From Alicyclobacillus mali NBRC 102425 (GTDB taxonomy: Bacteria > Bacillota > Bacilli > Alicyclobacillales > Alicyclobacillaceae): a stretch of DNA of 64,000 nucleotides. Where the stretch lies: NCBI RefSeq assembly GCF_001570745.1, contig NZ_BCSG01000011.1, positions 1 through 64,000 of the forward strand. Direction: 5' to 3'. The translations under genes and the position numbers were made by a program. Below, in pieces: positions 19,744 through 22,104 of this stretch (positions are counted from its first letter, which is position 1; every line of letters begins with the position of its first letter). A model generated the notes under the pieces. The model was given only the letters and a program-made list of their open reading frames with translations, did not search any database and was not told the DNA's origin.

Positions 19744-20256
19744 TCACAAAAGCAATAGAACAATAAATACCCCAGCAAGAACACCCATGTATTGCCACAG
19801 GCGTGCACCTTGGTTCGCCTCGTCTTGCGCCGCTCGAATGGCCTCCTCCAGGTCCGCGCGCGCTGCCAGAAACGGCTGCTGCAGATGGTCCCGATCCGCC
19901 ACAGCGATGGAACGCAGCAAGCGGACGAACGGCTCGGCATCCGCATCGTTCAGAACACCGTCCGTCGCCGCGGCCAGCGACACGCCTTGAAGCACGAGCT
20001 CTCCTGCGTCGGTCGGGCGGCTCTGCGCGGTCGCCAGATCGATGAGCCAACCGCCGCACCATCCTCCGAGCCGCGTGCCCACGGTCCGCAGCGCCGCCGG
20101 GATCGGCGTGGCGTGGTACTCGACCTCGCCCTGGAGCTCGATGAGCGCCTGGAGCAACTTCCTGAGCGCCTTCGGGCGATCCCGATAGCCCTGGGCGACC
20201 CGAAACCCAATGAGCGCGCACGCAATGAGCACCAGGCTGGCCCCCGCAAGCTTCAT
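19744..20256 (-). CDS. spoIIIAB: Stage III sporulation protein SpoIIIAB
   Basis: The 170-residue protein has an N-terminal membrane helix (AGASLVLIACALIGFRVAQ), a central helical domain that resembles type II secretion GspF-like folds (LRKLLQALIELQGEVEYHAT), and a C-terminal membrane helix. It is thought to recruit the ATPase SpoIIIAA to the membrane. ATG 20256 overlaps the spoIIIAA stop codon. Confidence 0.93.
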   Translation of the reverse strand: MKLAGASLVLIACALIGFRVAQGYRDRPKALRKLLQALIELQGEVEYHATPIPAALRTVGTRLGGWCGGWLIDLATAQSRPTDAGELVLQGVSLAAATDGVLNDADAEPFVRLLRSIAVADRDHLQQPFLAARADLEEAIRAAQDEANQGARLWQYMGVLAGVFIVLLLL

Positions 20257-21260
20257 CTCGCCTCCACGCCTCCACGACCGATGACGCGTCCTTCCGCGTC
20301 CAGAATCGCTTCAACGGTGCCCGGCCCCTTGCGCCGGCTCAGGACGACGTAACGGTCGAACGCCCGAGCAAGGAACAATCGCTCCATCCACGGCCTGCGG
20401 CGCCACGCGTCGAGCGACGCTGCGTGCGCGGTCGCCACCACGGCCACGCCGGCGAGCGACGCCTCGAGCACCGCCTCCGCATCCTCCGTTCGGCCGATCT
20501 CGTCGGTGACGACGACATGCGGCGATAGACTCCGAATGGCCATCATCATGCCCTCCGCCTTCGGACATCCGTCGAGTACGTCCGCGCGAGGGCCGAGATC
20601 GAACTGCGGGATGCCGTCGACGCTGCCCGCAATCTCTGATCGCTCGTCGATCACGGCCACCTTCATGCCGTGATCGCCTGGTGCGAAGCCGCCATAGCTG
20701 AATCTCCGCGCGACATCGCGGACAAGCGTCGTCTTGCCGCACTGGGGCGGCGACACGATGAGCGACGACAGCGGGCGGCGCGATGCGCGATCGTACAACG
20801 CGGGCAGCACAGACGCCGCCACCCCGGGGCGATCGCGCGAGATCCGAATGTTCAGCGAAGTGACATGGCGGAAGGCCCGCACGCGCCCAGCCTCCACGAC
20901 GGCCCGGCCCGCGATACCCACCCGGTGACCGCCCGGCAAAGTGACGTACCCCTGGCGCATATCTTCTTCCACCGCATAACGAGAAAACTGGGTCAGGCGT
21001 TGCAGAACTTGCGCCAATGCGCCGGCGGAGATGCGCATCGATGCGTCCAGCGATTGAGCGAGAGTTCCATCCGAACCCAAAAAGGCAGACCGCTGGCGCA
21101 AGCACAACTCGACCGGTTGCCCGACGCGCAGGCGAATTTCCTCGAGTTCGTCCAGCCAAACGTCGCTCAGGGCTTCAAGCCATCGGGCAACTTCGAGGGG
21201 CAACACGGCGAGCACCTGCTCGATGACAACTTTCGGCCGGTTCGAATTCGCCACGGACAC
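20253..21260 (-). CDS. spoIIIAA: Stage III sporulation ATPase SpoIIIAA
   Basis: The 335-residue secretion-type ATPase heads the operon. The Walker A is SPPQCGKTT and the Walker B is VVVTDEIGR; a Sec/T2SS-ATPase-like N-terminal domain contains the block EIRLRVGQPVELCLR. It likely powers the SpoIIIA feeding tube. GTG 21260 has AGGGGGTG 6 nt upstream and gives a family-like N-terminus. Earlier in-frame codons to 21323 would overlap the promoter. Confidence 0.95.
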   Translation of the reverse strand: MSVANSNRPKVVIEQVLAVLPLEVARWLEALSDVWLDELEEIRLRVGQPVELCLRQRSAFLGSDGTLAQSLDASMRISAGALAQVLQRLTQFSRYAVEEDMRQGYVTLPGGHRVGIAGRAVVEAGRVRAFRHVTSLNIRISRDRPGVAASVLPALYDRASRRPLSSLIVSPPQCGKTTLVRDVARRFSYGGFAPGDHGMKVAVIDERSEIAGSVDGIPQFDLGPRADVLDGCPKAEGMMMAIRSLSPHVVVTDEIGRTEDAEAVLEASLAGVAVVATAHAASLDAWRRRPWMERLFLARAFDRYVVLSRRKGPGTVEAILDAEGRVIGRGGVEAR

Positions 21261-21279: not shown

Positions 21280-21295
21280 GTCCATGTATATGGAC
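21280..21295. repeat. Perfect 16-bp inverted repeat in the spoIIIAA upstream region
   Basis: GTCCAT-GTAT-ATGGAC reads identically on both strands. It overlaps the proposed sigma-E -10 element and lies between spoIIIAA and the divergent 33-codon ORF, so it could bind a dimeric regulator of either. Confidence 0.6.
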
Positions 21296-21313
21296 GGGCG
21301 TGCGCCTGTATGC
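21285..21313 (-). promoter_or_regulatory. Candidate sigma-E promoter of the spoIIIA operon
   Basis: Minus-strand GCATACA (21307-21313) and CATATACA (21285-21292) are 14 bp apart. They resemble the sigma-E pattern KCATATT / CATACAnT with two and one or two mismatches. The predicted start is near 21278, giving a short leader with the ribosome site. spoIIIA is sigma-E-dependent in Bacillus. Confidence 0.45.
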
Positions 21314-21382
21314 GACTTGGCAATTGGTCTGCACCGCCAGAGAGGTCTTTGCATTGAATGAGGAGAGGAGCGAGGAGGGTCG

Positions 21383-21484
21383 ATGGTGGATCTGTCTCTC
21401 TTGGTCCGATGGATCGTCGTCTTCTTGGTGATCTTTTTGCTTTTGATGGTGCTCGTGTTCAGCCTCATGCGAAAGAAGGCATGA
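21383..21484 (+). CDS. 33-residue single-pass membrane protein (unknown)
   Basis: A small plus-strand gene: ATG 21383 preceded by GAGGAGGGTCG, 33 codons, then TGA and a strong terminator. The product is MVDLSLLVRW, a continuous hydrophobic helix, and a basic RKKA end, so one membrane helix with a positive C-terminus. It is divergent from spoIIIA and convergent with efp. The good ribosome site, compact hydrophobicity and adjacent terminator support a real gene. No family recognised. Confidence 0.6.
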   Translation: MVDLSLLVRWIVVFLVIFLLLMVLVFSLMRKKA

Positions 21485-21485
21485 G

Positions 21486-21530
21486 AAGGCCCGTGCGGGA
21501 GGCGCATATCCCCTGCCGCACGGGCCTTTT
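21486..21530 (+). terminator. Strong intrinsic terminator after the small ORF
   Basis: Stem aaggcccgtgcgg (21486-21498) pairs perfectly with ccgcacgggcctt (21516-21528) and runs into TTTT on the plus strand. It starts 2 nt after the stop codon. The same hairpin may block efp transcription arriving from the right. Confidence 0.85.
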
Positions 21531-21546
21531 CGGCGCGCTCTGCGTG

Positions 21547-22104
21547 TCACGCGCGCGACACGTATTCGCCGGAACGCGTGTCGATCACGACTTTGTCTCC
21601 CACGTTGATGAAGAACGGCACCTGGAGCGTATAGCCCGTCTCAACCGTCGCGGACTTGCTCCCGCCCGTCGCCGTGTCGCCACGGATGCCCGGCTCCGTA
21701 TCGGTGACCTCAAGCTCCACGGTGTTGGGCAGGTCAATGCCGATGATCTCGCCCTGGTATTGAACGATGAAGCAATTCATGTTCTCCTTCAGGAAGTTCA
21801 ATTCGTACTCAAGCTGGGCTCGCGGAATGTTGATCTGCTCGTACGTCTCGGTGTCCATGAACGTGTAGTTCTCGCCATCGTTGTAGAGGTACTGCATCTC
21901 ACGCGTTTCAATTCGAGCGCGCGGCACTTTTTCCCCCGCGCGGAACGTCATCTCTCGAATCGCGCCCGTCTTCACGTTCTTCAGCTTGGTCCGCACGAAC
22001 GCCGAGCCCTTGCCGGGCTTCACGTGCATGAATTCGATCACGCGCCAAACCGATCCATCGTATTCAATGGTCGTCCCATTGCGAAAATCGTTGCTTGAAA
22101 TCAT
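21547..22104 (-). CDS. efp: Translation elongation factor P
   Basis: The 185-residue, three-domain tRNA-mimic relieves ribosome stalling at polyproline. The domain I loop [11 protein letters not shown] contains the lysine that is modified in many bacteria. The C-terminal signature [20 protein letters not shown] is present. It follows aroQ by 27 bp, the usual aroQ-efp neighbourhood of Bacillota. The minus-strand transcript ends at the hairpin at 21486-21530. Confidence 0.97.

Follow-up and report, generated by a model that had tools for sequence, protein, structure and literature searches.

A conserved gene for a predicted 33-residue membrane peptide beside spoIIIA, with a sigma-K-type promoter of its own

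Does the short interval between spoIIIAA and efp in Alicyclobacillus mali NBRC 102425 hold a gene of its own and, if so, at what stage would its product be made? In the window (the whole stretch of 64,000 nucleotides that was analysed, with positions counted from its first letter), spoIIIAA occupies 20253-21260 on the minus strand, with the GTG at 21260 chosen as its start (TIGR02858, E 2.7e-107), and efp, encoding elongation factor P, occupies 21547-22104, also on the minus strand (TIGR00038, E 5.9e-82). A small plus-strand ORF between the two therefore diverges from spoIIIAA and converges on efp. The ORF begins with the ATG at 21383, ends at 21484 and encodes the 33 residues MVDLSLLVRWIVVFLVIFLLLMVLVFSLMRKKA; the earlier note's description of a 33-codon ORF with a good ribosome site holds, with AGGAGG at 21373-21378 in front of the start, in a region that is kept in relatives. 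The note's single membrane helix likewise corresponds to one helix-length hydrophobic stretch with basic residues on its flanks, from which, by sequence and alignment, a single-pass membrane peptide is predicted. Further into the spoIIIA operon, the SpoIIIAB gene at 19744-20256 matches TIGR02833 over its full length yet stays under the curated cut-off (85 versus 146.5 bits).

That the ORF is a real, conserved protein-coding gene can be read from its relatives. When the 61 nearest genomes were searched for it, 54 of the 55 that belong to the order gave a match, each at E ≤ 2.4e-5; the sole order genome without one is 62% complete, and a 55th match, to a genome from outside the order, was weak (E 0.15) and was taken as chance. 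The 42 loci on named contigs include many Alicyclobacillus species as well as Sulfoacidibacillus and Ferroacidibacillus. A profile search of 398 genomes of the class gave a match at E ≤ 0.01 in 86 and at E ≤ 1e-10 in 54 (39 from the order, 15 from other families), and among 199 genomes of the phylum the window's own genome was the sole match at E ≤ 1e-5. Over 28 columns in 15 members of the genus, changes were found at the first, second and third codon position in 12, 2 and 25, respectively, and pN/pS was 0.10, 0.036 and 0.085 in three sub-groups (0.10 being that of the closest relatives) and 0.18 across all 15. This codon-position bias, together with the low pN/pS, indicates a protein under purifying selection, and what the earlier note called a tidy small gene can thus be considered one. 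Start, ribosome site and stop moreover shift together across families.

The neighbourhood is as stable as the gene itself. Taking one locus per genome (n = 54, with the extra copies L019 and L051 left out), spoIIIAA and efp both flank the small gene in 52 loci, and the other two sit on truncated contigs; within the order the gene is as persistent as its flanks. The earlier note had suggested looking for relatives that lose the ORF while the flanks stay; the ORF is kept together with them. Profile matches also identified CD1247-like and DUF2619 (yqhV) neighbours, and a yqhV-like gene was detected in 23 of the 54 order loci; the window's closest clade has none between the small gene and efp (21484-21547). 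Among 14 loci from families outside the order, spoIIIAA adjoins the small gene in 7 and efp lies on its other side in 10. One more distant family of the class (L088, L089, L090, L094 and L098) still has a CD1247-like gene, yqhV and efp adjoining the small gene, and no spoIIIAA match beside it in the stretch examined. Since the gene there keeps its place without an adjacent spoIIIAA match, linkage to spoIIIA is not essential. Membership in the SpoIIIA-SpoIIQ channel finds no echo in the sequence either: the gene is divergent from the operon, and none of the SpoIIIAA-AH families was found for it in the Pfam and NCBIfam scans.

The timing of expression is best approached through the upstream region, where the layout (A/C)AC-N17-CATNNNNT(A/G) precedes the small gene in 33 of the 36 loci of the window's family, with a spacer of exactly 17 in all 33. 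In the window it takes the form of CAC at 21332-21334, 17 nucleotides, and CATTGAATG at 21352-21360 on the plus strand. The 110 nucleotides upstream were scanned, and L037, whose look-alike site lies further out, was counted as a miss. Shuffled sequences gave a mean of 0.32 and a maximum of 3 of the 36 loci, the other strand fitted in 1 of 36, and the whole window holds 10 occurrences on its two strands; these figures should be read in the light of a regular expression written after the loci had been inspected, and of 36 loci that are related by descent and not independent. Promoters for sigma-K and sigma-E are described as having a common -10 and a -35 that differs in one base, C versus T (PMC517825), which makes the -35 C a pointer to sigma-K. 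Replacing this C by T, the sigma-E form, or by G or A left 0 of 36 matching loci in each case.

As controls we chose two genes expected to be under sigma-K, dpaA and yabG, in 15 genomes of the genus; yabG is under sigma-K in B. subtilis. CAC-N17-CATANNNTA was found in front of dpaA in 15 of 15, and 13 of the 15 genomes have a MAC-type -35 in front of yabG, the spacer there being mostly 15-16. The B. subtilis homologue of dpaA, spoVFA, is described as SigK-controlled in PMC5629000. The site of the small gene thus has the -35 C of the sigma-K regulon, rightly spaced from a -10 of the CATANNNTA type, in the weaker version CATNNNNT(A/G); the exact published -10, CATANNNTA, occurs in 0 of the 36 family loci. 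The order's second family fits the strict pattern in 1 of 18 loci, and many loci there show GATANNATA instead; 4 of the 13 loci examined from outside the order fit it. Scoring against full consensus strings for sigma-K, -E, -G, -F, -A and -H gave only a modest excess, the counts of patterns with a fixed spacer being the sharper tests. Taken together, the pattern strongly suggests that sigma-K RNA polymerase transcribes the small gene from this promoter.

The promoter of spoIIIAA itself occupies the adjoining block at 21280-21315 on the minus strand, with CATA at 21312-21309, 16 nucleotides, and CATATA at 21292-21287, within the palindrome-like GTCCATATACATGGAC. The window's family has the pattern (C/T)ATA-N16-C(A/G)TATA, directed toward spoIIIAA, in 34 of its 36 loci, and the second family has it in 16 of its 18, with a spacer of 16 in every matching locus and shuffle means of 0.01 and 0.02. 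Its spacing and form fit sigma-E, which is reported to drive spoIIIAA in B. subtilis (PMC517825). The earlier note's claim of an upstream region shared with a sigma-E-type spoIIIA promoter is therefore well founded, the block being conserved in 50 of 54 loci. Its suggestion of a link to sporulation is supported too, on a different basis: the sigma-E-type promoter points the other way, and the link would therefore run through the small gene's own, sigma-K-type promoter. The two -35 elements (21309-21312 and 21332-21334) lie about 20 nucleotides apart in the window, and the distance between the promoters differs among species. Such a back-to-back arrangement suggests that transcription here passes from sigma-E to sigma-K. 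Palindrome-like sequence, GTCCATGTATATGGAC at 21280-21295, lies over the spoIIIAA -10 and is kept in much of the order. The upstream stretch further carries GGACA(A/R)G, a motif which we take to be SpoIIID-like, in 18 of the 36 loci of one family and 9 of the other's 18.

On the other side of the gene, a 13-bp hairpin with arms at 21486-21498 and 21516-21528 lies between the convergent genes. The folding energy of the segment 21482-21535 is -39.7 kcal/mol (z -6.3), which none of 200 shuffles reached, and the stem is followed on the plus side by TT and then C, with no U-rich tail on the minus side; the hairpin is thus terminator-like toward the plus strand. A simple terminator scan did not list it because its loop exceeds the length that the scan allows. 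The stem is identical or nearly so in the six closest genomes only, and two other aligned sub-groups of the genus have no hairpin at that place. Of the dedicated terminator in the earlier note, the 13-bp stem after the stop stands and the word dedicated does not: with convergent efp ending at 21547 and a hairpin confined to one clade, the structure may not be dedicated to the small gene. A leader peptide was ruled out, as the plus strand holds no further gene ahead of the hairpin.

The peptide itself belongs to a family for which the libraries offer no model. No Pfam or NCBIfam family was found, only weak sub-threshold matches, and neither the peptide nor the one sister peptide tested had a PHROGs match at E ≤ 1. 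The core peptide strings found no match in the literature searched, and in searches on Alicyclobacillus and spoIIIA transcriptomes and on small mother-cell membrane proteins no title or abstract opening describes the small gene. The alignment has the invariant core W-I-V-x-F-L-x-x-F-x-L-x-M-x-x-V-F-S, in which W, F, F, M and F at 0, +4, +8, +12 and +16 are nearly invariant, and the variability moment over 29 distinct core sequences peaks at 100 degrees (P = 0.03). A sister family, xxYTxWAVVFLIIFVLFFLLVPxY, is present in several copies per genome and has the core W-x-V-V-F-L-I-I-F-x-L in common with it (hhalign probability 97.4%, E 1.3e-11); it differs in being multi-copy and unlinked to spoIIIA, with a Gly/Tyr-rich N-terminus, a Pro after the helix and no basic tail. 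Apart from the small gene, the window's genome has 9 other matches at E ≤ 1, and the sister-family promoters reach a mean score of 6.28 of 9, not clearly apart from the 5.88 of shuffles. In this genome and its relatives (L171-L179, L057-L068) amplified peptides of about 28-60 residues carry the core YTxWAVVFLIIFVLFFLLVP; some lie in neighbouring pairs, they have Gly/Tyr- or Cys/Thr-rich tails, and some have CATANNNTA upstream. One genome, Alicyclobacillus pomorum by contig name, has extra unlinked copies of the small gene (L051, L139), with genes of the YheC/D-like ATP-grasp and NAGPA types as neighbours, a suggestive setting.

Judging from these sequence features, the small gene probably encodes a single-pass membrane peptide of the late mother cell, under a sigma-K-type promoter and from a family that Pfam, NCBIfam and PHROGs do not cover and that has an amplified sister family. 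With sigma-K polymerase, synthesis of the peptide would fall to the mother cell at a late stage of sporulation, once the adjoining sigma-E-driven spoIIIA operon has done its work. The peptide would then insert in a mother-cell membrane, either the outer forespore membrane or the plasma membrane, presumably with its N-terminus out and its R/K-rich C-terminus in. Since the W-F-F-M-F face is conserved, we infer that the helix may dock through it on a partner that helps to assemble or mature the spore envelope at a late stage. One could also speculate, at a clearly lower probability, that the peptide serves this lineage as an obligate late factor of the mother cell, acting on the SpoIIIA-stage membrane machine or opening the mother-cell membrane at release, and that together with the sister family it replaces the Bacillus-type YjcZ set; this we regard as unlikely.

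Somewhat less likely still is a holin-like or membrane-perturbing peptide that aids mother-cell lysis and spore release, an idea invited by a short protein with one helix, a basic tail and a late mother-cell-type promoter, and by the place of lysis genes among the last mother-cell genes in PMC517825. The lysis genes of B. subtilis that are named there are GerE-dependent wall hydrolases, however, and in our data the PHROGs searches were negative for the peptide and one sister peptide, and no lysis gene adjoins the small gene. It is likewise feasible, if rather improbable, that the promoter matters more than its product: bound sigma-K polymerase would displace sigma-E polymerase and shut off spoIIIA, the peptide being secondary. 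The short distance between the -35 elements in the window would suit such a role, and turning spoIIIA off is a known need, which in B. subtilis is described as being served by SpoIIID covering the spoIIIAA -35 (PMC517825). The selection at codon level and the persistence of the gene without an adjacent spoIIIAA match in five loci nevertheless argue against a purely regulatory role, as does an inter-promoter distance that varies among species. A type I toxin-like hydrophobic peptide, which size, hydrophobicity and the few additional, unlinked copies that one genome carries (L019, L051) might bring to mind, is very improbable given the fixed syntenic place across the order, the strong purifying selection and the failure to find an antisense RNA family; a plasmid-borne family was also ruled out, there being no plasmid match. 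That there is no gene at all, as the mere 33 codons and the missing Pfam or NCBIfam family might be taken to mean, has next to no probability, a chance ORF being ruled out by the 54 of 55 order genomes and the dominance of third-position changes, with start, ribosome site and stop moving together, and a conserved RNA element by an RNA family search that gave one weak match, below the family cut-off and located elsewhere.

The preferred reading, a late mother-cell membrane peptide, bears on how sporulation genes are catalogued. Current gene lists have been built largely on Bacillus and Clostridium and on proteins long enough for annotation, and with no Pfam, NCBIfam or PHROGs model to match it this small gene is likely to have been missed. 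One promoter and one 33-residue peptide provide a precise, testable target for the study of the late steps of spore maturation in acid-loving, spore-forming bacteria.

Two known systems invite comparison. YqhV (DUF2619, PF10942) is likewise a small protein encoded between efp and spoIIIA; in B. subtilis its gene lies upstream of spoIIIA, and PMC517825 gives it as a sigma-E gene. YqhV differs from the small gene's product in its length of about 90 residues and in being encoded on the spoIIIA strand, and we saw no sequence relation. The second is YjcZ, or tiny_TM_bacill (TIGR01732), which appears as a sigma-K gene of B. subtilis in PMC517825. Homology between it and the small gene's family is not detectable (hhalign probability 4.7%), the TIGR01732 profile matched neither the peptide in NCBIfam nor anything in the window's own genome (0 of 1), and in place of the Gly-rich N-terminus and F-A-L-I-V-V-L-F-I-L-L-I-I-V-G-A core of YjcZ the small gene's core reads RWIVVFLVIFLLLMVLVFS. 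TIGR01732 was found at E ≤ 0.01 in 69 of 200 class genomes, and only one of the matches listed (G032, E 0.0068) comes from the families that carry the small gene; the two distributions are nearly complementary, a pattern that is confounded by phylogeny. The likenesses lie elsewhere. Like the predicted product of the small gene, YjcZ is a tiny membrane protein with one helix, a link to sporulation and expression of the sigma-K type; it is multi-copy as is the small gene's sister family, and to that sister family it shows a weak resemblance (79%). The small gene thus represents a protein family still without a library model, yet of a kind already known, that of the tiny sporulation membrane proteins.
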